From positions 1-34,888 of the forward strand of contig CANQVD010000040.1 of NCBI GenBank assembly GCA_947627215.1: a DNA stretch of 34,888 nucleotides, in the 5' to 3' direction. The notes below the pieces were generated by a model. That model was given only the letters and a program-made list of their open reading frames with translations. It searched no databases and was not told the origin of the DNA. The DNA comes from an uncultured Eisenbergiella sp. GTDB lineage: Bacteria > Bacillota > Clostridia > Lachnospirales > Lachnospiraceae. Made by a program: the position numbers and the translations under genes. Below, in pieces: positions 13,722 to 34,756 of this stretch (its first letter is position 1; every line of letters begins with the position of its first letter).

Positions 13722-13988
13722 TCACATAAAATCCACATCTACCGTATCCCGCAGCACCAAAATATATTCCGCCCGGCCTCGCCTGACCGCTGCCGATACA
13801 GTAAACCGCCCTGTTCTTTCCCCGTTCCCCCCATCAGCCGCAGCGCACGGGCAGCATCTCCGCTATAGAGATAATCCTATTTCTGCTGTCCAGGCGTAAA
13901 AGCAGGGATTTTCCCGGACAGGAACCCACGAATCGCGGATAAGCGCGATCCCGACCGCTCCGGTCGCTCCGGTTATCACAACACGCAT
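13722..13988 (-). pseudogene. Decayed NAD-dependent epimerase/dehydratase (SDR)
   Basis: The ATG at 13988, with AAGGGGG about 9 bases upstream, starts MRVVITGATGAVGIALIRD, the Rossmann start of an extended SDR. The frame stops after 41 codons. In other frames the same DNA continues with recognisable C-terminal SDR motifs in the right order: FTPGQQ, a TAG, then DYLYSGDAARALRLMG; next VYCIGSGQARP; then AEYILVLRDTVDVDF. Intact relatives have about 300 residues; here roughly 190 internal residues are deleted and at least two frameshifts and one stop have accumulated. It lies 74 bases downstream of the ThDP enzyme gene, on the same strand. The original substrate is unknown; by position it may have reduced or epimerised the product of the CDP-sugar module. 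Confidence 0.8.
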
Positions 13989-14062: not shown

Positions 14063-15859
14063 TCATTTCTGCCACAGCGGGATCAACATATTCTCTTTCA
14101 TTTCCTTTTCACTGATCGGCGGATTCATATATTCCAACGGCATTGACTCCATCTGTCCATCTGAACGCTTATAAGAAACTTGTTTTGGAACCGCGGTAAG
14201 ACCAATCGGCGTCATGACCTCACAGATCACAGGCCCCTCATAATTCAACACTTCCTGAACTCTGACATCCAGATCCTGATTAGAAGAAATCTGGATCGTT
14301 TTCAGTCCAAACGCCTCTGCCACTTTTGAAATCTCAGGGAGCTCCAGATTAGAGGTACGGTCACACGCGACGAGATTTCCCTGAAACAAATTTGTCTGTG
14401 TTGCCTTTATCGCGCCATATCCCCGATTGCTTAAAACAAATATCTTAATCGGCAGATTCAGCCTGTAAATCGTCTGCAATTCCTGTATATTCATCACAAA
14501 ACCGCCGTCTCCATTCACTCCAACGGTCCTTTTCCCTCCGCTGGCAAGGCAGGCCCCGATCGCTGAAGGCAGTCCATAGCCCATGGATGCGAGACCCTTC
14601 GTGCAAAAAACACGCTGCCCTTTCTTGACCCGGAAGGTCTGCATGGAAATATCAATGCAGCTTCCTGAACTCCCTGATACATAGATGTCATCCGGTCCCA
14701 TATGCTTTGAGATCGTTTCCAAAAGGCAATAAGTATTCACCAATTCCTCCTGCTGCCAATACTCATCCTTTACGATCGGATATTTTTCTTTTAACCGACG
14801 CCCATATGCAAACCATTCCTCCCGATCTTTCCGAACGATTTTTTCTTTATTTACGATCAACAGCCGCATGAATTCTCTGGCGTCCGCACATATCGGAATA
14901 TCAGGACGTACATTCGTCTTATGCAGCTCAGTACTGTCGATATCGACCATTACTTTCACTGCTTCTCTGGCAAATCCGTCAAAATTATATCCTGTCTGCA
15001 GCAAATTCAATCGTGCACCGATGCTCATGAAAAAATCCGAATTCTGCTGAAGAAAGTTCGCATATCTATGTCCAAGGCCTCCCGGCCTTCCAAAATATAC
15101 CGGATTGTCTTCTTCAATGAGATCAATCCCATTCCATGTAGTGAGAACCGGGATCCTCAAAATATCCGTCAACTGCTCCAACTCTTCCAGGCCATTTGCC
15201 AGTCGAATCCCATTTCCGATCAACAGCACCGGACGCTCTGAACGATTCAGCAGATCTATGACCTGCCATACCTGCTTCTCAAGATGTGTATTGAGCGGCA
15301 TCTCAAACGGATGATAACCGACCAATTGCGTTTCATCTACCATTGTTGCCTGTACATCAAGCGGAATATCCAACCAGACAGGCCCTTTTCTTCCATGGGT
15401 AGCTTCATATAAGGCACGTTCCATATGATAGCGAATCATCATAGGATCATCTACCAGCGCACAATATTTCGTTATGGAACGGACAACAGAAATAATATCC
15501 AGTTCCTGCATCCCCTGCTGCCGAATTCCCTGATGATTGATCATATCCGCTCGTTTTACCTGACCGGAAACGACAAATACCGGCGTGGATTCCAGATATG
15601 CGCCGGCCACTCCGGTCACCGCATTTGTTCCTCCCGGTCCTGTCGTCACCATAAGCAGCCCCAGTTTATTGTTTACCCGCGCATAGGCCTCCGCCGCAAT
15701 GGCGCAGGCCTGTTCATGCAAACAACAGACATATTCTATCAAGGAGCTTCGGCCAAGCGAATCATTTAAATGCATTGCTCCGCCGCCGGGCAGCATAAAC
15801 ATATGTCTTACCCCTGTCTCTTCCAGTTTTTTAATCACATAATCAGATACCTTTATCAT
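14063..15859 (-). CDS. ThDP-dependent acetolactate synthase-like enzyme, YerE-like
   Basis: A 598-residue three-domain thiamine-diphosphate enzyme. The N-terminal domain has FMLPGGGAMH and the cofactor-activating Glu49 in HEQACAIAAEAYAR. The central domain (about 190-340) matches the acetohydroxyacid synthase fold. The C-terminal domain has the ThDP motif GDGGF (450-454) ending at N478. In Yersinia, YerE is an acetohydroxyacid-synthase-like flavoenzyme that moves a two-carbon unit from pyruvate onto CDP-3,6-dideoxy-4-ketoglucose in yersiniose biosynthesis. The neighbours here (rfbF, rfbG, rfbH) make that type of acceptor, so a carbon-branching role is likelier than valine/isoleucine synthesis; no small regulatory subunit is present. 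ATG 15859 has GGAGGAG upstream. It is 17 bases from the aldolase gene. Exact substrate is inferred. Confidence 0.85.
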   Translation of the reverse strand: MIKVSDYVIKKLEETGVRHMFMLPGGGAMHLNDSLGRSSLIEYVCCLHEQACAIAAEAYARVNNKLGLLMVTTGPGGTNAVTGVAGAYLESTPVFVVSGQVKRADMINHQGIRQQGMQELDIISVVRSITKYCALVDDPMMIRYHMERALYEATHGRKGPVWLDIPLDVQATMVDETQLVGYHPFEMPLNTHLEKQVWQVIDLLNRSERPVLLIGNGIRLANGLEELEQLTDILRIPVLTTWNGIDLIEEDNPVYFGRPGGLGHRYANFLQQNSDFFMSIGARLNLLQTGYNFDGFAREAVKVMVDIDSTELHKTNVRPDIPICADAREFMRLLIVNKEKIVRKDREEWFAYGRRLKEKYPIVKDEYWQQEELVNTYCLLETISKHMGPDDIYVSGSSGSCIDISMQTFRVKKGQRVFCTKGLASMGYGLPSAIGACLASGGKRTVGVNGDGGFVMNIQELQTIYRLNLPIKIFVLSNRGYGAIKATQTNLFQGNLVACDRTSNLELPEISKVAEAFGLKTIQISSNQDLDVRVQEVLNYEGPVICEVMTPIGLTAVPKQVSYKRSDGQMESMPLEYMNPPISEKEMKENMLIPLWQK

Positions 15860-15876
15860 GCCTGTACTCCTCCGGA

Positions 15877-17487
15877 TTAACGGAATATGCTTTCTGTTAT
15901 AAATTTAATAGATATACGGTCCTGTGTCGTCGCTTTAAAATCCTCGAACATATCCTTGATCTCAACATTTAATTCATCCCATCTGTTTTCCGGATTTAAA
16001 TTCGGAAGTGAACTGTCTGAGTAGTTCTGCGCATAGTCAGAACTGAAACCATCAAACCCGGCAATGGAAATCTCTTTTACATGGAGCTTGTTCATCAACC
16101 GCAGACACAATATGACCGCATTGTCAAAATGCTCCCATCCCCGTTTGATCAACAAATTAAAATTAATGATAATATCCTTTTTATCCGCTTTTGTCTTTAC
16201 ATTAGATACAATTATTTTGTCAGTCGAATCAAAAGCGTCCGGATAAATCTCTTTCGCATACTGATATCTTGTCTTATTGCTGAAAAACAGATAATCACAC
16301 TGATAGTCCCCACAGACAGCATTGATCCCGATTACGGCAGGGTGATATTCGGCAATATATTTCTTTATTTGCTCCTTATCTCTGGAAATAGAGCTTCCCG
16401 GAGCCAGAAGCAATACCTCACGTCCCTGCAGCATCCGACACAGATATGCAGCCTGCGCTTCATCATCAATCCCCTTATTCTGATATTCTATATATTTCTT
16501 TTCCAGAAGATCATAATTATATTTATGCCTGTCCTCAACCGAAAGTGACTCAATAATATTGCGCATATCCTTCGCATTTGTTCTGTGATTCTCAAGCAAA
16601 TAGGCGATATTATTCACATGTGTGCAATACAGTCCGGCAATAAAGTAAGGCGTAGAATATCCCCAGGAATAATTGGCGCTGAAATATCCCATATACATAT
16701 CTATTGCATCCAATATGACATTCATATCATAATTACACTTATATTTCCTGTCAAGATAACTGGCAATCAGCTCTGTCGTTGTATTGCCGGCCCCTCTTCC
16801 CATTCCGCACAAACTCGAATCAACGATGAGGCTCCTCTCTCCCCCATATAGTTTCTCCACAAACTGTGTGGTCAAAGAAAATGACAACTGCTGGTTATTA
16901 TGAGAATGAAATCCCAGCTTAATATCCCGATCAAGCTCAGCATCCAAAACAGAGATAATCCGGGACAAATCCTCCCAGTACATTGCACCAAACGTATCTA
17001 CAATTGAGAGTGCCAATGGTTTTGCATGATTGATCTCTTTCGCAAGACACCGCAAGTCCTCATCACTGTATCCCAGCGTATTCGCAGCCTGAAACAACAC
17101 CTGATATCCCTTTTCCCTGATCACAGTGCCAAGCGCGATCCCCTCTCTGAATTTTTCTTTTGGGAATACAACGCGAATCGCATCAATGGTTCTCCCATCA
17201 TAATCCGGCAGAGAATCCAGATCATAACGATCCCAGTCTATCATCACAGTATATAAAGAATCCGGATTTTTTTCTAATAAATACTTCTTCAAATCATCCG
17301 GAACGTGAAAAAAGGAAGTTCCGTCCCGATGCGGCGCATTCTTCAGCCAGCCGCATTCAATGATATCTATATTGGCATCCTGCATTTTTTTTATTATCCC
17401 CTTAATCGCAGGAGTTCCGAAATCTGCATTTACAATATAGGCACCGTCGCGAAGAGTACAGTCTAACAACTGTATGTTTTTTTTCAT
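15877..17487 (-). CDS. HMGL-type (DRE-TIM) aldolase with C-terminal Rossmann-like domain
   Basis: A 536-residue protein of two parts. Residues 1 to about 275 form a DRE-TIM metallolyase domain like 4-hydroxy-2-oxovalerate aldolase: LLDCTLRDGAYIVN with the metal-binding Asp and catalytic Arg, then GFHSHNNQQLS with the HxHNN metal site, and SLCGMGRGAGNTTTE. The remainder (from about 340) has VLLLAPGSSI, IGINAVCGDYQCDYLFFSN and IAGFDGFS, a Rossmann-like pattern recalling DUF115/MptE-like domains in surface-sugar loci. Such aldolases cleave or form bonds to pyruvate-type units, so it may serve the ThDP enzyme next door, by supplying or adding a keto-acid unit. I chose ATG 17487 (GGGAGGGAAT just upstream); a GTG at 17520 is less likely. 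Confidence 0.82.
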   Translation of the reverse strand: MKKNIQLLDCTLRDGAYIVNADFGTPAIKGIIKKMQDANIDIIECGWLKNAPHRDGTSFFHVPDDLKKYLLEKNPDSLYTVMIDWDRYDLDSLPDYDGRTIDAIRVVFPKEKFREGIALGTVIREKGYQVLFQAANTLGYSDEDLRCLAKEINHAKPLALSIVDTFGAMYWEDLSRIISVLDAELDRDIKLGFHSHNNQQLSFSLTTQFVEKLYGGERSLIVDSSLCGMGRGAGNTTTELIASYLDRKYKCNYDMNVILDAIDMYMGYFSANYSWGYSTPYFIAGLYCTHVNNIAYLLENHRTNAKDMRNIIESLSVEDRHKYNYDLLEKKYIEYQNKGIDDEAQAAYLCRMLQGREVLLLAPGSSISRDKEQIKKYIAEYHPAVIGINAVCGDYQCDYLFFSNKTRYQYAKEIYPDAFDSTDKIIVSNVKTKADKKDIIINFNLLIKRGWEHFDNAVILCLRLMNKLHVKEISIAGFDGFSSDYAQNYSDSSLPNLNPENRWDELNVEIKDMFEDFKATTQDRISIKFITESIFR

Positions 17488-17532
17488 ATTCCCTCCCAGA
17501 TCATTTCTATATACACGCACATGATTTTTATG

Positions 17533-18651
17533 TCATATCTTTATAGCCGCATCGAGGTACCTGCGAATCTGCTCATCCGTATATTCCTTCATTTCTTCAC
17601 CGTTTAACAAACAATAATACCAATCCGTCGTCATTTCTACAGTTTTTTCAATATTCCACACGGGTTTCCATCCAAATACGCTCCGAATTTTCGAACAGTC
17701 CAGACGCAAGAGATTCGCCTCATGCGGCCCCTGGTCTTCCTGTATGCTCCAAGCCTGATATCGTCCTGATAGTTCTCTCCATCTTCTGCAGAACAGGTCC
17801 GCCATCTCCCCCGACGTAATACAGTCCGATTCATTCGGGCCGACATTATAAGCGCCTTCCAAACACTTTTCTTCATATTGCCCCGCTGCAATCATCAAAT
17901 ATGCTGTCACAGGCTCCAAAACATGCTGATAAGGTCTGACTGCCCGCGGATTTCTAATTACGATATCCTTGCCAGTACCTGCCGCACGCACACAATCCGG
18001 AATGATTCTGTCTTTTGCAAAATCCCCCCCTCCGATTACATTTCCAGCCCGGGCCGTTGAAACAGCAAGATCCTGATCCCGAAAAAAGGAATTCCTGTAG
18101 GAACCAGTAACTAATTCGGAACAGGATTTACTATTGGAATACGGGTCATACCCATTTAGCTCCTCATTTTCACGATACCCCCATATCCATTCCCTGTTGA
18201 GATATACTTTATCTGTTGTCACATTCACAAATGATCGTACGCAATCACTGTTCCGGATCGCCTCCAGAACATTCACTGTCCCCATCACATTCGTCTCATA
18301 TGTGTACCTGGGCGCAACGTAGGACTCCCGAACAATCGGCTGCGCCGCCATATGGATAACAACTTCCGACTTAGATTCCACAACTGAGGTTTTCAATTTT
18401 TCATAATCACGAATATCACCTGTAATAGAACGCACCTCCTCACCCAACCCCAATACATCAAAAAGTGAGGGGCCTGATGGTGGTTCCAGCGCATATCCAG
18501 TTACCTCCGCGCCCGCTCTCAGCAATATTTGACACATCCAACTGCCTTTGAATCCAGTATGACCGGTGATAAAAACCTTCTTTCCGTTATAGAATGATAA
18601 CCAATACTTCTGGAATCTTCTTTTCTTAATTTCCCCAACTGCTCTACTCAC
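17533..18651 (-). CDS. rfbG: CDP-glucose 4,6-dehydratase
   Basis: A 372-residue extended SDR that turns CDP-glucose into CDP-4-keto-6-deoxyglucose. VFITGHTGFKGSWM (the family's Rossmann signature), HMAAQPIVRESY, VTTDKVYLNREW and the catalytic YSNSK all match RfbG/DdhB. The start is GTG 18651, overlapping the stop of the upstream gene as GTGA. The normal family N-terminus begins near FYNGKKVFITG; here about 18 extra residues (including GEIKKRRFQKYW) precede it, and their DNA (18605-18645) repeats a segment next to the IS200-type tnpA at 34339-34379. No closer start codon is apparent. It acts between RfbF and RfbH. Confidence 0.95.
   Translation of the reverse strand: MSRAVGEIKKRRFQKYWLSFYNGKKVFITGHTGFKGSWMCQILLRAGAEVTGYALEPPSGPSLFDVLGLGEEVRSITGDIRDYEKLKTSVVESKSEVVIHMAAQPIVRESYVAPRYTYETNVMGTVNVLEAIRNSDCVRSFVNVTTDKVYLNREWIWGYRENEELNGYDPYSNSKSCSELVTGSYRNSFFRDQDLAVSTARAGNVIGGGDFAKDRIIPDCVRAAGTGKDIVIRNPRAVRPYQHVLEPVTAYLMIAAGQYEEKCLEGAYNVGPNESDCITSGEMADLFCRRWRELSGRYQAWSIQEDQGPHEANLLRLDCSKIRSVFGWKPVWNIEKTVEMTTDWYYCLLNGEEMKEYTDEQIRRYLDAAIKI
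18605..18645. repeat. Copy 1 of a 41-base repeat (rfbG 5' end)
   Basis: Bases 18605-18627 are identical to 34339-34361 over 23 positions; the next 18 positions match at 12, giving 35 of 41 overall. Both copies are in the same orientation. On the minus strand this copy encodes the IKKRRFQKY stretch of the unusual RfbG N-terminal extension. Confidence 0.7.
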
Positions 18652-19961
18652 TTTACCCTAACCTCCTCCTTCCTATTGTCGTTCCAGACAGACCACGCAA
18701 AGAAAACAGCCAATATACTTCCAAATAGTATTCTGTACACAAAGTGATAGTGTACTCTTGAATGCTCCGCAAACAGAAACATCCACAAAAATGGCAAAAT
18801 AATGATTAGTCCGTAATCCGCAAAAGTAATCAGAAATTCCTTTCCGGCCGCTTCCCGAATCATTTTCCCTGCACCCAAGATCCCAATGAAAAACAGCGGC
18901 AAAGTTGCCGGAGATTCCAACAGACCCAACACATTATGTCCTGAGCCGATTATAAAATCCAAAATATGCTGCAAAAAACCACTGTTCAATGAGGCTCTCT
19001 GCGCAATATGATTTGAAATGTCTAAAAAAAAATCTGCATTCCCGGAAACAATCCAGGTTAATACCCATTTGGATATCCATGTCAAAGTATAACCCAGGCT
19101 CCAAAATACCCCAGATGACAGGATAACCCGCAGGGAATCCCTACTGTGATAACCTTTTTCCTTTCTGTAACGGGTCACAAGAATTGTGACCGGAACGGTA
19201 AAGGTAATAAGCGGGGTCGTCAGGAAATCAATATAGTTCACAATGCTGCCAACGACAAAAAAAGCAATGCATAATTTCCCCGTTTCCGGCAGATCTTTCC
19301 TAAGGCACCATAACGAGAACAGCAACATAACAGAAAAGCAACTCACGTACTGCATGGAAATCGGGACAGCATAAAAATGAACTGACACCAGTCCCAAAAA
19401 TGTGATTATGCAGTAAATCTTCCCCAGTCTGAAATAAATATAATACAAAAAGGAAGAAAAAAGAAATAGCATAACCAGATACGCCAACGCCCGTATCTGA
19501 GAAATATTAAAAAAATACAGCAGTGGAAAAAGAATCACTGTCATTCCCTGCCAATATCTTCCATAAGACTTTTTTTCAACACTGATCTTTCTTTCGTCCG
19601 CTTTTGCGTTCAAAATTTCGATCAGATTCTCCACACCCAATAAGGGCGGATTCGCGCCTTCTATTTCACAATAATTCGCCTGGAAAGCAGACCTGACAGT
19701 ACCCCCCTCATCCGCGTGATACGCCATATTCCACCAATAGCCGTCCGACCAGTTTTCCGTCTGCGCAACATCTATACATGAGAAAAATCTTTTATAATTT
19801 CCCTCTTCCGCAATCAGTTCCCTACTTTCCTCCAAATGCGCCCTCGCATTGGAAGCTGGAATGCTCCATGCCAGAATCAATAAAACGCTATAAAAAAATA
19901 TAAGCGAAAAAAAAATCAAAATTAATCTGCCTGTATTTTTGCCCGTGAATTCAAATTTCAT
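18648..19961 (-). CDS. Multi-pass membrane protein, GT-C-like
   Basis: A 437-residue protein: one helix (about 11-32), an outward domain of about 110 residues (including AHLEESRELIAEEGNYKRFF, ENWSDGYWWNMAYHADEGG and NANPPLL-like ANPPLLGVEN), then about nine further hydrophobic segments. An N-terminal helix, a soluble loop and many helices is a layout found in GT-C glycosyltransferases that use polyprenyl-phosphate sugars, but I cannot name a family. It lies between rfbH and rfbG inside the CDP-sugar module, so it could handle the product of that pathway. Start ATG 19961 has AGGATC about 13 bases upstream. Its stop overlaps the rfbG start. The DNA is AT-rich. Confidence 0.72.
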   Translation of the reverse strand: MKFEFTGKNTGRLILIFFSLIFFYSVLLILAWSIPASNARAHLEESRELIAEEGNYKRFFSCIDVAQTENWSDGYWWNMAYHADEGGTVRSAFQANYCEIEGANPPLLGVENLIEILNAKADERKISVEKKSYGRYWQGMTVILFPLLYFFNISQIRALAYLVMLFLFSSFLYYIYFRLGKIYCIITFLGLVSVHFYAVPISMQYVSCFSVMLLFSLWCLRKDLPETGKLCIAFFVVGSIVNYIDFLTTPLITFTVPVTILVTRYRKEKGYHSRDSLRVILSSGVFWSLGYTLTWISKWVLTWIVSGNADFFLDISNHIAQRASLNSGFLQHILDFIIGSGHNVLGLLESPATLPLFFIGILGAGKMIREAAGKEFLITFADYGLIIILPFLWMFLFAEHSRVHYHFVYRILFGSILAVFFAWSVWNDNRKEEVRVK

Positions 19962-19996
19962 TGATATATGATCCTATTATTCAAACATAAATATTG

Positions 19997-21346
19997 TCAA
20001 ACATCAGAATATCTCACAATATCCTTGATACTCCCCACCATATAATCAAGCATTAACTGCGTCATTCCCGGATACACGCCGATCCAGAAAGAATCCCTCA
20101 TAATCCGATCTGTATTCTTTAACTGGCCGACAACCCGGTATCCAACGCCATTCCTACGCATTTCATCAAAACAGGGATGCCTCAACAGATTTCCAGCAAA
20201 CAGCATACGGGTCTGGATCCCTTTCTTTTCCAACTGCTGTACTATCTCGTTCCTGTCAATTCCCTCCCGACATGTAATCAGGAAACCAAACCAGCTCGGA
20301 TCCGAATCAAGACAAGGCTCCGGAAGAATCAGCTTATCAGTAACGGAGCTAAGGCCTTCCTTCAGATATGAAAAATTTTCTTTCCTGCGCGCAATAAACA
20401 TCGGGAGCTTTTCCAGTTGTGCACAACCGATTGCCGCCTGCATATCCGTTGCCTTCAGATTATAGCCCAAATGAGAATATACATATTTATGGTCATATCC
20501 CAACGGGAGTTCTCCGTACTCCCTGTCAAATCGATGCCCGCACAAATTATCCCGGCCGGATGGGCAGGAACAGTCCCGCCCCCAATCACGGAAGGATCGA
20601 ATACACTTATGGAGAAGCGGATGATTGGTGTATACCGCGCCCCCCTCTCCCATCGTCATATGATGCGCCGGATAAAAACTGGATGTCCCGATATCCCCCA
20701 CCGTTCCTGTATAATGCGCTTTTCCATCCAGATAATAGATCGCGCCCAGAGCATCGCAATTGTCCTCGATCAGCCAAAGCCCATGCTGATCACAAAACCG
20801 TTTCACTGTTCTCAGATCAAAAGGATTCCCCAGCGTATGCGCGATCATAACGGCACGCGTTTTCTCTGACAAAGCTTCTTCCAGCAGCTTCACATCAATA
20901 TTATACTGCGGTATCGTTACGTCCACAAAAACAGGAACGGCGCCGTACTGAATAATCGGCGCCACCGTGGTCGGGAACCCCGCCGCCACTGTAATCACCT
21001 CATCGCCCCTTTTTATTGCGCGTTCCTTAAGCAACGGAGATGTCAGCGCCATAAAAGCGATTAAATTGGCGGAAGATCCGGAATTCACCAAGGAACAATA
21101 TCTGACGTTCAGATATTGCCCTAATTTTGCTTCGAACTCATCTGTATAACGTCCGGAAGTAAGCCAAAACTCCAGCGCACTGTCCACGAGATTCTGCATT
21201 TCTTTTTCATCGTATACCCTGGACGCATAGGGGATCCGATCCCCCGGCTCATACCCTTTTTTCCCGCTGTGAAAAGCCCGAAAATATTCTCCCGTAAACT
21301 CTAAGATTTTTTCCCTCGCCTGTGCTTCAGTCATATTTTCAAACAT
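19997..21346 (-). CDS. rfbH: CDP-4-keto-6-deoxyglucose 3-dehydrase (E1)
   Basis: A 449-residue PMP- and iron-sulfur-dependent enzyme removing the C3 hydroxyl of CDP-4-keto-6-deoxyglucose. In the stretch SSFYPAHHMTMGEGG, His228 replaces the Schiff-base lysine of ordinary aminotransferases, the hallmark of E1. The four expected 2Fe-2S cysteines are all there: C197, C259, C261 and C269, i.e. C-x61-C-x1-C-x7-C; the Yersinia enzyme has C-x57-C-x1-C-x7-C, so only the first spacing differs, by four residues. I chose ATG 21346 (GGAG 5 bases upstream); the frame is open 17 codons further but into rfbF. The partner reductase E3 (AscD/DdhD type) is not in the window. Confidence 0.95.
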   Translation of the reverse strand: MFENMTEAQAREKILEFTGEYFRAFHSGKKGYEPGDRIPYASRVYDEKEMQNLVDSALEFWLTSGRYTDEFEAKLGQYLNVRYCSLVNSGSSANLIAFMALTSPLLKERAIKRGDEVITVAAGFPTTVAPIIQYGAVPVFVDVTIPQYNIDVKLLEEALSEKTRAVMIAHTLGNPFDLRTVKRFCDQHGLWLIEDNCDALGAIYYLDGKAHYTGTVGDIGTSSFYPAHHMTMGEGGAVYTNHPLLHKCIRSFRDWGRDCSCPSGRDNLCGHRFDREYGELPLGYDHKYVYSHLGYNLKATDMQAAIGCAQLEKLPMFIARRKENFSYLKEGLSSVTDKLILPEPCLDSDPSWFGFLITCREGIDRNEIVQQLEKKGIQTRMLFAGNLLRHPCFDEMRRNGVGYRVVGQLKNTDRIMRDSFWIGVYPGMTQLMLDYMVGSIKDIVRYSDV

Positions 21347-21348
21347 GT

Positions 21349-22134
21349 CTACTCCATATCCTTCCATACTTTCCAGGGCGCAGTTCCTTCTTCCCACAAC
21401 CGCTCTAGATAATCCCGATCATGCACTGTATCCATAGGCGCCCAAAATCCCTCATGCCGATACGCTGCCATCTGACCATCCCGAGCCAGCTTCTCAAACG
21501 GTCCCGCCTCAAGCATTTGGCTCCCATCTCCCAAATAATCAAATATTTCCCGATTCAGAACCATATAGCCAATGTTGAGCCAAACCTGATCTCCCCTATC
21601 CTTTTCTCGAAATCCCTGCACCAAACCGTTGGCAGATATCTGCAAACCTCCAAATCTCCCTTCCGGCTGCGTAACAGATATCGTAGCGATTTTTCCCTGT
21701 CGCCGATGGAAATCCCACAGAGCGTCAAGATCAATATTTCCCACTCCATCCCCGTATGTCAGCATAAATTCTTCGTCTTTTCCAAGATATTCCCTGATCC
21801 GCAAAATACGGCCGGCCGTCAATGTGTTCTCACCGGTATCGGCCAATGTAACACGCCATGGCTCCACTCTGGAAAAATGTGTCTGCTCGGAATCACTCCC
21901 CATATTAAATGTCAAATCAGTCTGATGACGGTAATATCTGGTGAAATACTCCTTGATCATCCTGCCCTTATATCCGCAGCAAATGATAAAATCCCGATAT
22001 CCATATGCGGAATATATTTTCATAATATGCCATAAAATCGGTTTTCCGGCTATTTCCACCATTGGCTTTGGACGGAAACGAGACTCCTCGCTTATGCGCG
22101 TCCCTTTTCCCCCCGCCAATATCACTGTTTTCAT
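21349..22134 (-). CDS. rfbF: Glucose-1-phosphate cytidylyltransferase
   Basis: A 261-residue nucleotidyltransferase making CDP-glucose from CTP and glucose-1-phosphate. MKTVILAGGKGTRISEES followed by RPKPMVEIAGKPILWHIMK is the RfbF signature; DFIICCGYKGRMIKEYF, EPWRVTLADTGENTLTAGR, FMLTYGDGVGNID and the closing GFWAPMDTVHDRDYLERLWE also match. ATG 22134 overlaps the stop of the upstream paralogue (ATGA). rfbH begins 2 bases after its TAG stop. This is the copy expected to be catalytically active. Confidence 0.95.
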   Translation of the reverse strand: MKTVILAGGKGTRISEESRFRPKPMVEIAGKPILWHIMKIYSAYGYRDFIICCGYKGRMIKEYFTRYYRHQTDLTFNMGSDSEQTHFSRVEPWRVTLADTGENTLTAGRILRIREYLGKDEEFMLTYGDGVGNIDLDALWDFHRRQGKIATISVTQPEGRFGGLQISANGLVQGFREKDRGDQVWLNIGYMVLNREIFDYLGDGSQMLEAGPFEKLARDGQMAAYRHEGFWAPMDTVHDRDYLERLWEEGTAPWKVWKDME

Positions 22135-22913
22135 CTTCGCTCCTGTTCCCAGACTTTCCATGGCGCCATGCCCGCATTCCAAAGGTTTTCCATTTCACTT
22201 CTGTCTCTGACCGTCTCTACCGGCATCCAGAACCCCCGATGTTTATAAACATGTATCTGATCCAATTGCTTCAAAACCCTAAATAACTGATCCTCCAGGC
22301 TGTAATTTCCATTCAGATAATGGAAAATCCTCTTATTAAACACATAAATATTCGCGTCGGTCCACGCCTCAAATTCCTCTTTTTGTTCTTTTTTTTCCCT
22401 CAAACAATCCCGACCGTCGACAACGATCAACTGATTTCTCCCTGTAGGAGCCGCCGCAGCCATTGTAGCCATCCGTCCGGCTCCATGATGTTCCTCTACC
22501 AATTTCCGGACATCTAAATCTGACAGGCAATCCCCATAGGAAACGACAAACTCTTCTTCTTTGATATATTCCCGGATTCTGCTAATCCGTTCTCCTGTCG
22601 CAGAATAAAGCCCGGTATCCACAATTGTGACCTTCCAATCCTCCGATACTTTTTTATGTATTTCTATTTTGTTATTCAGAAGGTCTACCGTAATATCTGA
22701 GTTATACAGATAAAAATCCGCAAAATAATCCTTGATTATCTCAGCCTTATAACCGCCGCAGATGATAAACTCATGAAATCCATACCAAGAAAACTCTTTC
22801 ATAATATGCCACAGGATTGGCATTTCTCCAATCAACGCCATCGGTTTGGGGATCTCTTCCCTGCCGCTTGCAATCGTGCTTGGCTGGCCGCCCGCCAAAA
22901 TTACGACTTTCAT
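22131..22913 (-). CDS. RfbF-like nucleotidyltransferase paralogue with altered active site
   Basis: A 260-residue homologue of the neighbouring rfbF: KPMALIGEMPILWHIMKEF, EFIICGGYKAEIIKDYF, DWKVTIVDTGLYSATGERI and GFWMPVETVRDRSEMENLW align along the full length. The nucleotide-binding signature, however, is LAGGQPSTIASGREEIPKPM: the usual G-T-R is P-S-T, so the catalytic Arg is gone while the PKP Lys is kept. GDGV is GDCL, and the FGG/EKP segments are also lost. It may be a non-catalytic partner or regulator of RfbF, or use another substrate. ATG 22913 has a strong AAGGAG site; its stop overlaps rfbF, so the two are made together. Confidence 0.85.
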   Translation of the reverse strand: MKVVILAGGQPSTIASGREEIPKPMALIGEMPILWHIMKEFSWYGFHEFIICGGYKAEIIKDYFADFYLYNSDITVDLLNNKIEIHKKVSEDWKVTIVDTGLYSATGERISRIREYIKEEEFVVSYGDCLSDLDVRKLVEEHHGAGRMATMAAAAPTGRNQLIVVDGRDCLREKKEQKEEFEAWTDANIYVFNKRIFHYLNGNYSLEDQLFRVLKQLDQIHVYKHRGFWMPVETVRDRSEMENLWNAGMAPWKVWEQERR

Positions 22914-26770: not shown

Positions 26771-28729
26771 TCATTTTAATCCAAATTCGCTCACGGTCTT
26801 TCGATAAGCGACCGCATTCCCCAGATCAAATGATTTCCCTTCTGGCAAAAATGCCATTATTCCCTGCTTTTCACATACATATTCCAATGCCTCCGTCAAT
26901 CCTATTTCCCCCTTTGCATCCACGATATTATTTTGTACGGCCTCATCCAGCCGATCAAACACCGCCTCTGTAATGACATAAGCCCCAAAAGCGGCATAGT
27001 AATTCTCTCTGCACTTTTTAGAGGATACACACAAAAAATCCTGCGCCATATTTCGATTGGGCTTTTCCTCGATTCGCACCACTTTGAGTACCGTCTCTTC
27101 TTTATTTTCCCATATACCGCTGAAAATACCGTAATTCGTGACCTCCGACAACGTTATCTTCTGCAGGGCTACCATGCTTTGCCCATATTGCTCATAAGCG
27201 TCTAAAAGCTGTCTTGTACAGGGAACTCCTGTATCGCTTTGATAAATAGTGTCCCCAAGCAACAGCAAAACCGGTTCACCATCGGCAAAATCTCTCGCCT
27301 GATATACCGCATGTCCAAATCCTTTTTGTTCATCCTGATAAACGAATTGCAGTTTCTGCGCGATCCTCCTGATCTTCTTTTCATATTGTTTCATATTTTC
27401 CGGTAATTTCTCATAATGTTCCTCCGGCAACTGCTGAAAGAAAAACGATTCATAATATGCCTGTTCCTGTCGATTCAGAATCAGGCAGATTTCCTCAATT
27501 TCCACCGCATCCAGTTCCTCCAGCAGAACCAGAATCCCCGGCTTCACAAGACCATCTCTGTCAACAACCGGACAGAACTCCTTTTTTACTCCTCTCGTTT
27601 CAGGATACAATCTCGTTCCAAATCCTGCCACTGGAATAACCGCCTTGCGGACGCTCCGATTCGGCTTAAGTGTAAGCGAATAAGCGGTCATCCCCCGCAC
27701 ATTCCGAAGATAATCCATTAATCTGCGCTGAGACAGTTCATCCTTTGCTAAAAGCTGTACCGTTCCATCTCCCTGTGACCCAACACCCTTTGCGCCATAT
27801 ATGAATTCTTTGACCCTCTCATCTGTCAAAACAGAATGCAGCACCGGCGCCGTCAATTCTTCCGGACACATAGGCGCTACTTTCTCATCGAATAGTGCCT
27901 GGGCCTCCTCCATTAGCGCTCCAAGCCTCCGCGCATCCCCAGATGCTATATACTCGATCGCTCTTTCCGTGATTCTCTGGTTATCAACTCCCAGGGCATC
28001 ATGCAGCTCCCTTTCCATATCATTTCCAGCAAACGGATATGCCCGATTCAGATCCGCCAGAATCTTCACCGTATCCTTCCCAGCCATCAAATCTGCAAAC
28101 ACATAATATAGCGGCTTTTTTACGGAAATTCGCTCCACATCCAATTCATTTCCGTCAAAGATCATGGATACCGGATTCACGCCAAAAGCACATGCCTGGT
28201 CCAGCCGTCCGCAGCGCGAAGGGGTCCTCTGCTCCCCCCAATATGCGATGTTCATCACTCCCAACGTATTCAAATGAAGTTCATATAGCAGGTTAAACGC
28301 TTTCGTGACCATCACACAAATAGCGGCGGAAGAAGAGAGTCCGCTTTTCATCGGCAAATCCATCTTCGTAATGTCCAAATGAAGTCCGCCGACATGATAC
28401 CATTCGCATATATAAGAAGCCACTCCGGCAACATAGGAAAAGAAGCCGCCCTCCTTCGCGGTGGCTTTCAGCTTTCCAATATCCATTTCACAGGAAAAAG
28501 ACGCCCCCTTATACTCCGGCAATTCGCTGGATACGGAGAAAGCCTCGTCTTTTCGCGCCACACCGTATATTCCCTGCTCTATCCCTGTCACGATCGCACG
28601 CCCAGGAATAATTGCCGCATTCATATTCCTGTTCAGACCGGCCCAGTCACTATGCTCTCCAAAAAGACACAGCCTTCCCGGCACAAAAAGCTCTATTTCC
28701 GTTTCTGTTCCCTGCTTTTTTTTATTCAT
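26771..28729 (-). CDS. Fused GHMP sugar kinase and sugar-1-phosphate nucleotidyltransferase
   Basis: A 652-residue bifunctional protein. Residues 12-355 are a GHMP kinase: PGRLCLFGEHSDWAG (17-31, compare the GEHTD of galactokinase), LPMKSGLSSSAAICVM (125-140, the ATP-binding loop) and GAKGVGSQGDGTVQLL (312-327). Residues 360-652 are a GalU/RmlA-type nucleotidyltransferase: KAVIPVAGFGTRLYPETRGVKKE (362-384, with the G-T-R and Lys), LLLLGDTIYQS (488-498), VVRIEEKP (550-557) and a final KSFDLGNAVAYRK resembling GalU. The obvious reading is phosphorylation of a free sugar at C1 and its activation, probably with UTP, i.e. a salvage enzyme. The bifunctional FKP enzyme of Bacteroides has the two activities in the opposite order. 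Sugar identity is unknown. ATG 28729. Confidence 0.9.
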   Translation of the reverse strand: MNKKKQGTETEIELFVPGRLCLFGEHSDWAGLNRNMNAAIIPGRAIVTGIEQGIYGVARKDEAFSVSSELPEYKGASFSCEMDIGKLKATAKEGGFFSYVAGVASYICEWYHVGGLHLDITKMDLPMKSGLSSSAAICVMVTKAFNLLYELHLNTLGVMNIAYWGEQRTPSRCGRLDQACAFGVNPVSMIFDGNELDVERISVKKPLYYVFADLMAGKDTVKILADLNRAYPFAGNDMERELHDALGVDNQRITERAIEYIASGDARRLGALMEEAQALFDEKVAPMCPEELTAPVLHSVLTDERVKEFIYGAKGVGSQGDGTVQLLAKDELSQRRLMDYLRNVRGMTAYSLTLKPNRSVRKAVIPVAGFGTRLYPETRGVKKEFCPVVDRDGLVKPGILVLLEELDAVEIEEICLILNRQEQAYYESFFFQQLPEEHYEKLPENMKQYEKKIRRIAQKLQFVYQDEQKGFGHAVYQARDFADGEPVLLLLGDTIYQSDTGVPCTRQLLDAYEQYGQSMVALQKITLSEVTNYGIFSGIWENKEETVLKVVRIEEKPNRNMAQDFLCVSSKKCRENYYAAFGAYVITEAVFDRLDEAVQNNIVDAKGEIGLTEALEYVCEKQGIMAFLPEGKSFDLGNAVAYRKTVSEFGLK

Positions 28730-32702: not shown

Positions 32703-32720
32703 GTTTCATTGCTTAAGCTG

Positions 32721-32726
32721 TATAAT
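32721..32726 (+). promoter_or_regulatory. Candidate -10 box of an IS110 promoter
   Basis: A perfect TATAAT at 32721-32726, preceded by TG directly adjacent. No good -35 element lies 16-18 bases upstream (the sequence there belongs to the nested hairpin). It would drive the structured leader and then the transposase. Confidence 0.4.
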
Positions 32727-32924
32727 GGGGGGCATTGGTGTGACGGTTTCCTCCTTGGACCATCTGGTGTCCGTAGAACAGCCTGTCAGCCAGCCTTCCA
32801 TTTGCAGCCGTTCGATTTATGCAGGTTGGACTGCCTCTCGCATGTCCGCGTAATACCCCAGGAGATTGAATCGGCAATAGATAACCGCTGGTACCATGCA
32901 ATTCTCTCTTTCGGAGGTACGACC
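32727..32924 (+). ncRNA. Candidate IS110 bridge RNA region
   Basis: About 200 bases between the TATAAT box and the transposase start (ATG 32925, GGAGG at 32913-32917) lack a convincing gene, though the frame happens to be open. Short hairpins can be drawn (for example GGAC...GTCC near 32757-32774). IS110-family recombinases use a bridge RNA encoded in the noncoding end, and in the IS110 group this end is upstream of the gene, so this is the place to look. The two guide loops were not identified by me. Confidence 0.35.
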
Positions 32925-34136
32925 ATGTTGAACGCAGTCGGTATTGATGTCTCAAAGGGTAAGAGCACCGTGACAGTCCTGCAGCCCGGCGGCGTCTCCC
33001 TCAGGAAACCTTTTGATGTGACTCACTCTTTCAGTGGACTGAACAGCCTTAAGGATTACATCCTCTCCCTTGACGGCGATACCAGGGCCGTTATGGAATG
33101 CACCGGCCGCTATCACGAACCCAGCCTTCGCTGCCTGGCTGACGCCGGCATCTTCGTCGCCGCTGTCAATCCACACCTCATCCGCAACTTTGGCAAAAAC
33201 TCCATCCGCAAGGTCAAGTTCGATCCCGCTGATTCCAAAAAGATCGCCCGCTACACGCTTGACAACTGGGCCGATCCGCGAGAGTATTCTCCTATGGATA
33301 ACATTCGAACCCAGCTTAAAACACTCAACGCGCAGATGGACTTCTTTACCAAACAGAAAGTCGCTGCCAGGAACAACCTCATCTCGCTTCTGGATATGAC
33401 CTATCCGGGCGTGAACTCTCTTTTCACCAGCCCCGCCCGCGAGGACGGTTCTGAGAAATGGAGTGACTTTGCCGCTTCCTTCTGGCATGTCGACTGTGTC
33501 CGCAAAGCCGGCCTGAAAACCTTCACTGGGCGTTACAGGGCCTTCTGCAGGAGGGAAGGCTATAACTTCAGCGAGGCGAAAGCAAAGGAGCTTTTCGAGG
33601 CTTCCAGGGATCTTGTTGCGGTGTTCCCAAAGGAAAAAACCTATAAAGACCTCGTCGAAATGAGCATCCGCCAGTTCCGTACGCTCACCGAGACCACCGT
33701 CCTCATCCGCAGTGAGATGAATGAACTTGCAACCACGCTTCCTGAATACGATACGGTCATGGCCATGTGCGGCGTCGGAAAGACCCTTGGGCCGTAGCTC
33801 ATTGCTGAGATCGGCGATGTCTCACGCTTCACCCACAGGGAGGCCATCACAGCCTTTGCAGGTGTTGATCCCGGCGTGGATGAATCTGGAAAATACGTCT
33901 CGAAAAGCAACCGGTCATCCAAATGCGGCCCCGCCCGTCTGAGGAGGGCCCTCTTTCTGGTCATGTCAGTCCTGCTGCAGACGAAGCCGGATGACACGGT
34001 TTACCATTTCCTGGATAGGAAACGTTCCGAGGGCAAACCGTACAATGTCTATATGACTGCCGGCGCGAACAAGTTCCTGCGGATCTATTACGGGAAAGGC
34101 AAGGCGTATCTGGCTGCGCAGGAAAAAACGAATTGA
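32925..34136 (+). pseudogene. IS110-family transposase interrupted by an amber codon
   Basis: A frame of 403 codons with one internal TAG at 33795-33797 (codon 291). The N-terminal RuvC-like DEDD domain is intact, with D8 (GIDVSK), E58 (MECTGRYHEP) and D100/D103 (FDPADSKKIARY). The C-terminal Transposase_20 part lies beyond the stop and carries the expected S321 in DESGKY. The stop follows GVGKTLGP and precedes LIAEIGDVSRF; relatives have a Gln here, so CAG to TAG is the simplest change. The frame is otherwise perfect, so the event is recent or the stop is read through. The ATG 32925 has GGAGG 8 bases upstream. Without suppression the protein lacks the serine and is probably inactive. Confidence 0.9.
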
Positions 34137-34338: not shown

Positions 34339-34379
34339 TACTTCTGGAATCTTCTTTTCTTGATTCCTCCGCCTACTCT
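34339..34379. repeat. Copy 2 of a 41-base repeat (tnpA 3' flank)
   Basis: Matches 18605-18645 at 35 of 41 positions, the first 23 without mismatch. On the minus strand it covers the TAG stop of tnpA and the bases after it. In the frame used by rfbG it would encode GGIKKRRFQKY, very like the RfbG extension GEIKKRRFQKY. Confidence 0.7.
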
Positions 34380-34756
34380 TTTATGTACTTCTGTACTGCT
34401 TCGTCTGTAATATTGCCAATTGTCTCAACGTAATACCCTCTTGCCCAGAACGCTTTATCCCACTTACTCTGCAATTCTGGATGCCTGTCATATATCATTA
34501 ACGTGCTTTTCCCTTTCAGATATCCCATGAAATTCGATATGCTGATCTTCGGCGGAATTGCTACACTTAAATGTATATGATCGACACATACTGCTCTTGC
34601 TATGATATCCACACTTTTGTACTCGCACAGTGTACTTATGATCTCCCACACATCATCCCGTATTTTTCCATACAATACCTTTTTACGATATTTGGGGATA
34701 AAAACGATATGATACTGGCATTTCCATTTGGTGTGTGATAAACTTTTATTGTCCAT
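34373..34756 (-). CDS. tnpA: IS200/IS605 family transposase TnpA
   Basis: A 127-residue Y1 HUH transposase. The HUH pair is in VDHIHLSVAIPP and the catalytic Tyr in FWARGYYVETIGN; SHTKWKCQYHIVFIPKYRKKV is the usual N-terminus, and SNFMGYLKGKSTLMIYDRHP the middle. It cuts and rejoins single-stranded DNA at the element's hairpin ends. The ATG 34756 has AGGAGG about 7 bases upstream. Relatives often run 15-25 residues longer; here TAG follows YIKE, and the frame then continues AEESRKEDSRSTAL, so a CAG to TAG change may have trimmed the tail. The catalytic part is complete. Confidence 0.95.
   Translation of the reverse strand: MDNKSLSHTKWKCQYHIVFIPKYRKKVLYGKIRDDVWEIISTLCEYKSVDIIARAVCVDHIHLSVAIPPKISISNFMGYLKGKSTLMIYDRHPELQSKWDKAFWARGYYVETIGNITDEAVQKYIKE

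Follow-up and report, generated by a model that had tools for sequence, protein, structure and literature searches.

What kind of sugar is made by a polysaccharide locus in which the genes for a 3,6-dideoxy sugar are combined with a carbon-carbon bond-forming enzyme and an aldolase? This question is raised by a contig of an uncultured Eisenbergiella sp. of the family Lachnospiraceae (assembly GCA_947627215.1, contig CANQVD010000040.1; the whole stretch of 34,888 nucleotides is referred to here as the window). Positions 14063-22913 of the window hold a run of seven tightly spaced open reading frames (ORFs), all on the minus strand, in the order rfbF2, rfbF, rfbH, a 437-amino acid protein, rfbG, an HMGL-type aldolase and a thiamine diphosphate (ThDP)-dependent enzyme. 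An earlier note on this DNA had placed rfbF, rfbG and rfbH in one operon with the ThDP and HMGL enzymes; all five are present, and the three rfb genes, which together account for a cytidine diphosphate (CDP)-3,6-dideoxy-4-ketohexose, each score above the curated NCBIfam cut-off. Judging from the gene families and their recurrent arrangement, there is roughly a two in three chance that the product of this operon is a CDP-activated 3,6-dideoxy sugar with a long branch at C-4, and that the aldolase supplies the donor of the ThDP enzyme.

The ThDP enzyme is YerE-like and stands apart from IlvB. The catalytic marks that had been claimed for it, E49 and GDG...N, are found at E49, G450-D451-G452 and N478. 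The best solved relative is JanthE (Protein Data Bank 8rph, 400 bits), followed by acetohydroxyacid synthase (AHAS) at 265 bits, and a profile built from 44 ThDP enzyme sequences gives JanthE 634 bits, compared with 404 bits for the best acetolactate synthase. The alignment with JanthE is nearly full-length, including the C-terminal tail, where K559 is aligned with K567 of JanthE. In a phylogenetic tree, 106 ThDP enzymes from related loci (that of the window included) together with JanthE are split from six IlvB/AHAS sequences with the support of 100 (Shimodaira-Hasegawa-like approximate likelihood ratio test computed with a quick method, with no bootstrap). JanthE is the characterised YerE-like protein in this tree, YerE and ErwE themselves not being among its rows; it sits on a long branch and shows at most 40% identity to any of the locus sequences. 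One sequence that was read in the wrong frame and formed a long branch beside JanthE in the first tree (L111; loci are given L numbers where they have to be told apart) was removed from the second tree, and L108 and L115 are outside both trees. The earlier note had singled out a grouping with IlvB as the outcome that would speak against it; the enzyme groups instead with JanthE and the locus relatives. The candidate assignment to true IlvB was rejected given the tree and the profile, the score of 373 bits against the acetolactate synthase model TIGR00118 (cut-off 538.35), and the presence in the host genome of two further IlvB-like genes with only 30-31% identity to the ThDP enzyme; the cut-off is reached for none of the 25 NCBIfam models listed for this protein. 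The role proposed for the enzyme is the transfer of an acyl unit, taken from a 2-oxo acid, to the CDP-sugar at its 4-ketone.

The HMGL superfamily domain (PF00682) accounts for the N-terminal ∼330 amino acids of the aldolase, whereas the C-terminal domain yields weak matches only, to SteA-like proteins and others, in profile searches. Among solved structures, a putative aldolase (3dxi) comes closest, followed by 4-hydroxy-2-oxovalerate aldolases. A Claisen-type role (isopropylmalate or citramalate synthase) was considered and found to be less likely because its profiles and structures give lower scores than those of aldolases, with the citramalate, isopropylmalate and homocitrate synthase structures all ranking lower. 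Residues R24, D25, H205, H207 and the GMGRGAGN motif at 239-246 are invariant across 39 sequences. In the nearest family, the enzymes that have been characterised join pyruvate to aldehydes. The HMGL enzyme may work like 4-hydroxy-2-oxovalerate aldolase (DmpG/BphI), although it belongs to a separate family, and is proposed to make a 4-hydroxy-2-oxo acid that would serve as the donor for the ThDP enzyme.

The company kept by this aldolase in other genomes follows a pattern. A scan with the HMGL protein of the window alone, which is biased toward the ThDP kind of locus, retrieved 68 genome loci, and 60 of these contain a ThDP relative on the examined stretch (adjacent and on the same strand in 39, farther away on the same strand in 20, on the opposite strand in 1); 25 of the 68 have the ThDP enzyme along with all of rfbF, rfbG and rfbH. 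Among the eight loci lacking the ThDP enzyme, two are contigs shorter than 5 kb, and the genome of L003 (Roseburia faecis M72) holds a 71% identical ThDP relative on another contig. Because the loci were found by HMGL alone, a pairing that recurs in 60 of them is more than can be attributed to chance. A sample of 150 genomes from the family to which the window belongs gave 31 places with an aldolase and 44 with a ThDP enzyme; at the thresholds of these searches, they form 15 pairs within 10 kb and leave 16 and 29 places, respectively, unpaired.

The aldolases without a ThDP partner are mostly found beside KdsB or NeuA-like cytidine monophosphate (CMP) transferases and KdsC-like phosphatases. 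Viruses provide an independent sample: 59 environmental viral loci found by an aldolase profile alone, several of them near-copies, include 48 with a CMP transferase, 9 with a YerE-like ThDP enzyme, 2 with neither and none with both (at the stricter threshold, by hand count, 46, 9 and 4 with neither), and in 38 of the 59 (within L219-L277) the aldolase and KdsB form a single fused ORF, as confirmed for one such fusion by domain searches, in which one half matches the aldolase and the other KdsB. On plasmids, where the HMGL search yielded seven records, four of which were examined, the order aldolase-KdsB-HAD is seen in two Leisingera plasmids, and in a Desulfobaculum plasmid the aldolase accompanies rfbH and a split transketolase; a plasmid search with the ThDP enzyme at an E value of 1e-80 gave no match. 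Taken together, 161 aldolases, defined as ORFs in which D[CSA]TLRDG occurs within the N-terminal 90 residues and including that of the window, are associated with a ThDP enzyme in 84 cases, with a KdsB or NeuA-like CMP transferase in 65, with neither in 12 and with both in none (ThDP/CMP transferase/neither: 60/1/6 in the 68-locus scan, 14/14/3 in the family genomes, 9/48/2 in the viral loci and 0/2/1 on plasmids, plus the window). After removal of near-copies, 134 aldolases remain, and a tree of 133 of these, in which 35 of the 130 inner branches are well supported, requires at least five partner switches under parsimony.

Two side observations belong here. Nine of the environmental viral loci (L220-L228) combine the aldolase with the YerE-like ThDP enzyme, and L220 additionally encodes a dTDP-glucose dehydratase-like protein and RfbH, a possible branched-sugar cassette carried by viruses, which may use a different nucleotide. 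The host genome itself encodes HMGL paralogues (L070/L180, C6:48061-49629, and L071), one of which lies, according to cluster labels, between NeuA-like and KdsC-like genes and was scored, at the threshold applied, as having neither partner in the count of 161; this second locus suggests a sugar similar to 3-deoxy-D-manno-octulosonate (Kdo) or nonulosonate.

The main argument on the nature of the donor comes from a natural replacement of the aldolase. The ThDP enzyme of the window belongs to a clade of 36 sequences (support 97), of which 35 have the window-type aldolase within 9 kb; for the remaining one, L184, the aldolase is located on another contig of the same genome. The sister group of this clade consists of four ThDP enzymes encoded near NeuB (support 97), and the two groups are joined with the support of 100. 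In three of the four sister loci, NeuB and a KdsC-like phosphatase take the place of the aldolase: L210 has an operon with the order rfbF-rfbG-rfbH-NeuB-[HAD+SIS fusion]-ThDP, the fusion protein resembling KdsC and GmhA, and in L188 (after RfbH) and L185 (with no RfbH on the stretch), NeuB and the HAD/SIS fusion are in the same-strand run as the ThDP enzyme. The fourth locus, L196, has a NeuB-cupin protein beside the ThDP enzyme and lacks the HAD/SIS fusion; three more ThDP enzymes encoded near NeuB fall elsewhere in the tree. NeuB-family enzymes make 2-keto-3-deoxy sugar acids from phosphoenolpyruvate. The presence of two unrelated makers of 2-keto-3-deoxy acids in one and the same slot points to such an acid as the donor for the ThDP enzyme. 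The NeuB and HAD/SIS proteins score above the Pfam cut-offs but stay below those of the NCBIfam models of NeuB, KdsC and GmhA, so that their exact substrates differ, and in L185, a possible nucleotidyltransferase, recognized by eye farther away, leaves room for a second use of NeuB. The either-or choice between a ThDP enzyme and a CMP transferase as the partner, the fusion with KdsB and the NeuB/KdsC swap all fit an aldolase that makes 2-keto-3-deoxy (4-hydroxy-2-oxo) acids.

The assignment of families, the operon, the YerE-like grouping and the partner pattern of the aldolase are computed results. From these, we infer each of the reactions, their order, the donor and the product as follows. 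RfbF would activate glucose-1-phosphate with CTP, RfbG would produce CDP-4-keto-6-deoxyglucose, and RfbH would take off the 3-hydroxyl of the latter. In parallel, the HMGL enzyme would condense pyruvate with an aldehyde to yield a 4-hydroxy-2-oxo (2-keto-3-deoxy) acid, which the YerE-like enzyme would decarboxylate, transferring the resulting 3-hydroxyacyl anion to the 4-ketone. The predicted coupling product is a tertiary alcohol with ketone, CH2 and hydroxyl groups in its branch, as in sugars of the erwiniose or caryophyllose type rather than the yersiniose type. Because the ketoreductase that follows the ThDP gene in relatives is broken here, the branch may keep its ketone, or a homologous enzyme from another part of the genome may reduce it.

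Several known systems share parts of this scheme. As in the ErwE/erwiniose system of Pectobacterium, a YerE-like ThDP enzyme would act on CDP-4-keto-3,6-dideoxyglucose as the acceptor, and ErwE is reported to refuse pyruvate and to prefer 4-hydroxy-2-oxo acids as donors, MMAR_2332 being similar in this respect (PMC12247030); erwiniose is described as a ten-carbon branched sugar (PMC8657720). Unlike the host of the window, Pectobacterium is Gram-negative, and ErwE was compared by description. YerE of the yersiniose A pathway in Yersinia, also compared by description, shares the CDP-3,6-dideoxy-4-ketoglucose acceptor and the YerE-like enzyme but differs in using pyruvate as the donor and forming an acetyl branch, and section 2.1 of the review, from which this comes, names no aldolase for it (PMC12247030). 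In Mycobacterium marinum, MMAR_2332 is linked to caryophyllose, which is given as 3,6-dideoxy-4-C-[1,3,4,5-tetrahydroxyhexyl]-hexopyranose (PMC5706390) and has a long hydroxylated branch with a pattern fitting a 2-keto-3-deoxy acid donor: the CH2 group next to the coupling carbon is where a pyruvate-derived aldol would put it, and the transfer of such an aldol with decarboxylation, followed by reduction of the ketone, would leave the OH-CH2-OH pattern. This system, again compared by description, comes from another phylum and concerns a lipooligosaccharide, and the acceptance of a ketone by MMAR_2332 is still unproven according to a review (PMC12247030). JanthE (8rph-8rpj), the closest solved relative of the window enzyme, is reported to take 4-hydroxy-2-oxovalerate with benzaldehyde (PMC12188165); it differs from the window enzyme in having CDG in place of GDG, and it takes pyruvate as well. 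Finally, relatives of the HMGL enzyme, either fused to KdsB or encoded in its vicinity along with KdsC-like genes, recall the Kdo-type activation pathway (KdsA-KdsC-KdsB), as if replacing KdsA; the difference is that the Kdo pathway CMP-activates the whole keto acid, whereas the proposal for the window locus is that the keto acid loses its carboxyl group and is then attached to a different sugar. The suggestion in the earlier note that the aldolase alters the branch is thus strengthened by the gene neighborhood, the fusion, the slot swap and the donor preference of ErwE; what changes is the role of pyruvate, which is probably a substrate of the aldolase rather than the donor of the ThDP enzyme.

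Several observations weigh against a long branch made with a dedicated donor aldolase. No rfbF, rfbG or rfbH is found on the examined stretch in 27 of the 68 HMGL loci, and 29 of the 44 YerE-like places in the family genomes have no aldolase (E value 1e-60) within 10 kb, so that the ThDP step can run without one. The best NCBIfam match of the HMGL enzyme, PRK08195 (4-hydroxy-2-oxovalerate aldolase), scores 79.1 bits, below the cut-off of 229, and in the alignment Tyr28 replaces the His that follows TLRDG in 4-hydroxy-2-oxovalerate aldolases, which puts the enzyme outside the DmpG family proper. A distant relative of the aldolase on a Priestia plasmid, which lacks the D[CSA]TLRDG motif and accordingly was left out of the count of 161, is located among degradation genes with neither partner. 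JanthE is reported to accept pyruvate, and MygE to take C3 to C8 acids (PMC12247030), so that a YerE-like enzyme encoded beside an aldolase need not refuse pyruvate. Nor do the candidate pocket residues mark the presence of the aldolase. The positions aligned with V121 and P293 of JanthE are M117 and L287 in the window and are D and R in many aldolase-free relatives, but the D/R type is also found in 10 of the 59 sequences with the window-type aldolase, and among about eight independent pairs on the tree, approximately two agree and six show no difference; given that the residues do not change independently with the aldolase, this marker was dropped.

A further point against the proposed pathway is the state of the branch ketoreductase. 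YerF is the branch ketoreductase of the yersiniose pathway, and no intact enzyme of this type was found at the locus by tblastn, only a remnant. The search of the window with the ketoreductases of L199 and L061 reached up to 50% identity over 56 amino acids directly after the ThDP gene, with the pieces in different frames and most of the gene gone; the pathway in this strain may thus be incomplete or altered. The remnant shows that the usual arrangement, in which the ketoreductase gene follows that of the ThDP enzyme, was present in an ancestor. In L001 and L061, the intact ketoreductase adjoins the ThDP enzyme and comes after it as a pair with a family-2 glycosyltransferase, and a ketoreductase lies within 5 kb in 19 of the 24 window-like ThDP rows, a set that includes the window. 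In the host genome, another polysaccharide locus encodes a 56% identical relative, again adjoining a family-2 glycosyltransferase, so that the ketoreductase step may have moved elsewhere, or else the ketone of the branch may stay in this strain. The remnant leaves the odds of the long-branch reading unchanged.

These points have to be set against what other readings explain. A yersiniose-type route, in which the ThDP enzyme uses pyruvate to place an acetyl group on CDP-4-keto-3,6-dideoxyglucose while the HMGL enzyme works for a different sugar, would account for several family loci that combine rfbF, rfbG, rfbH and a YerE-like enzyme but lack HMGL over the examined stretch (among them L145, L193, L198, L200 and L203) and would match the use of pyruvate by YerE itself (PMC12247030). 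We nevertheless regard it as unlikely because HMGL adjoins the ThDP enzyme on the same strand in 39 of the 68 loci and is near it in 35 of the 36 members of the window's ThDP clade, and because no relative of KdsB, NeuA or NeuB that would use or replace the product of HMGL was found in the window (tblastn, and Pfam searches of the window ORFs). It appears quite improbable that the same donor logic operates on a different acceptor, with the unit being added to CDP-4-keto-6-deoxyglucose or another keto sugar that is not 3,6-dideoxygenated. Here the electron supply is the issue: an RfbI/DdhD-type reductase serves RfbH, and in the host genome (97% complete) no PF00970 (FAD_binding_6) protein was found, hence no ordinary RfbI, a negative that also weighs against the proposed pathway (the control search was positive in 8 of 14 known genomes); there was a single Fer2 match, in a 529-amino acid frame. 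RfbH-type enzymes, however, can use other electron donors (SpnQ), and a complete RfbH with its cysteines is encoded in the operon. In favor of a different acceptor, the known C-4-branched sugars are said, in an ambiguous wording, to vary in whether they have a C-3 hydroxyl, and the branched sugar of Rhodopseudomonas palustris is a 3-O-methyl derivative (PMC9912281).

The gene order alone does not fix the order of the reactions, and HMGL could act after the coupling, extending an acetyl branch already on the CDP-sugar; this is very improbable given that both the fusion with KdsB and the replacement by NeuB and KdsC indicate 2-keto-3-deoxy acids in free form, and that characterised members of the nearest family condense pyruvate with aldehydes. 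Hardly credible is a chance occurrence in the locus of an ordinary acetolactate synthase: the Pfam domains and the top NCBIfam matches of the ThDP enzyme are, indeed, those of acetolactate synthases, but the sub-threshold scores (TIGR00118 included), the two other IlvB-like genes, the tree and the profile all contradict it. The window thus holds a CDP-sugar branching locus of the YerE-like type, in which the branch is most likely long and its donor made by a dedicated aldolase.

The general pattern is of greater interest than the single locus. Tentatively, and with somewhat less than even odds, we propose a combinatorial scheme in gut Clostridia and in viruses of microbes whereby an exchangeable module, either HMGL or NeuB with the KdsC/GmhA-like phosphatase-isomerase, builds a 2-keto-3-deoxy acid of the Kdo or nonulosonate kind that is decarboxylated and joined by a carbon-carbon bond to a nucleotide-dideoxy sugar instead of being CMP-activated. 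If this is the case, surface glycans would hold undescribed higher-carbon sugars, with up to ∼15 carbons in the NeuB variant given a heptose aldehyde (our own arithmetic), the surface sugars of common gut bacteria would include long C-branched ones, and the type of branch would be predictable from gene content. A dedicated, exchangeable aldolase or synthase beside the coupling enzyme would also explain the origin of the donor acid for ErwE-type enzymes. No report of the aldolase-ThDP pairing or the NeuB swap was found in literature searches, which did not cover two key papers, so that priority is not established.

Table 1. Genes of the branched-sugar run in the window, and the NeuB-containing pairs of related loci
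Feature	Position	Strand	Basis
rfbF2, degenerate rfbF paralogue	22131-22913	-	TIGR02623, 271.9 bits, under cut-off
rfbF, glucose-1-phosphate cytidylyltransferase, canonical	21349-22182	-	TIGR02623, 366.8 bits (cut-off 300.25)
rfbH, pyridoxamine phosphate- and iron-sulfur-type CDP-4-keto-6-deoxyglucose 3-dehydratase	19997-21397	-	NF011936, 722.4 bits (cut-off 423)
437-amino acid protein, membrane protein by eye	18648-19961	-	no family
rfbG, CDP-glucose 4,6-dehydratase	17533-18651	-	TIGR02622, 437.8 bits (cut-off 278.45); GHTGFKG and TTDK motifs
HMGL-type aldolase with a further C-terminal domain	15877-17520	-	PF00682
YerE-like ThDP carboligase, 598 amino acids	14063-15859	-	JanthE match, tree, motifs
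Ketoreductase remnant (NAD-dependent epimerase/dehydratase type), broken, not a working gene	13759-13985	-	tblastn
NeuB next to HAD (KdsC-like) phosphatase-SIS (GmhA-like) isomerase fusion	L210:7387-9274; L188:13344-15300; L185:13504-15391

The rfb genes have features of their own. RfbH contains PAHHMTMGEGG at position 243, where pyridoxal phosphate-dependent aminotransferases have Lys in place of His, and four cysteines (C214, C276, C278 and C286) with the spacing C-X61-C-X-C-X7-C, the 61-residue spacing between the first pair being shared by 61 of the 62 RfbH rows. The upstream rfbF2, which the earlier note did not include, is a second rfbF gene in the interval, with the nucleotide-binding GxGTR loop changed to GxPST. 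The loop is altered in all six rfbF2 sequences (the window, L003, L004, L023, L058 and L196), as GxPST in five and as a variant in L023, and a canonical rfbF is found at most two genes away in five of the six, the sixth, L004, being at the end of its stretch. Outside the window, the canonical RfbF proteins encoded beside rfbF2 are 58-62% identical to RfbF of the window, compared with 46-57% in other loci. Paired catalytic and non-catalytic sugar-nucleotide pyrophosphorylases exist, and by analogy, rfbF2 could possibly be a non-catalytic partner subunit of rfbF in a two-subunit enzyme.

Several genes found within 5 kb of the ThDP enzyme differ between the 71 HMGL-positive and 28 HMGL-negative ThDP rows, with p values that are optimistic because of the relatedness of the rows and their partial selection by the aldolase: HAD phosphatase, 20 versus 1 (p=0.006), another short-chain dehydrogenase/reductase (SDR), 20 versus 0 (p=0.0007), an AroB-related gene, 14 versus 0 (p=0.009), and FkbM methyltransferase, 19 versus 2 (p=0.03). 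An epimerase-type ketoreductase is common in both sets, 38 versus 20 (p=0.12). The excess of phosphatases is expected if some of the aldehydes are phosphorylated, and a ketoreductase that is common with and without the aldolase is expected if it acts after the coupling. A trio of an SDR, an AroB-related phospholyase (similar to TIGR04425 but under the cut-off) and an FGGY kinase recurs with the aldolase and the ThDP enzyme in L005, L008, L009, L015-L018, L024, L028, L038, L059 and L062, as judged from cluster labels (for L016 and others by cluster only, and with the SDR farther off in L017 and L024); this trio may make the aldehyde.

The genes around the run, which encode glycosyltransferases from a number of families, a GT-D protein, RmlB and transposases, identify the setting as a polysaccharide locus. 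The related loci come mostly from Lachnospiraceae and other Clostridia of gut or rumen, according to the record titles, and it is from these titles that the setting of a Gram-positive capsule, put forward in the earlier note, is inferred. The 437-amino acid protein, which has no match in Pfam or NCBIfam, is possibly a glycosyltransferase or a part of a transport system. A single ORF at 26771-28729 of the window combines a GHMP-kinase half with a GalU-like nucleotidyltransferase half, and the right edge of the locus is marked by an IS110-like transposase (32709-33797, under its NCBIfam cut-off) and an IS200-type transposase (34373-34756).

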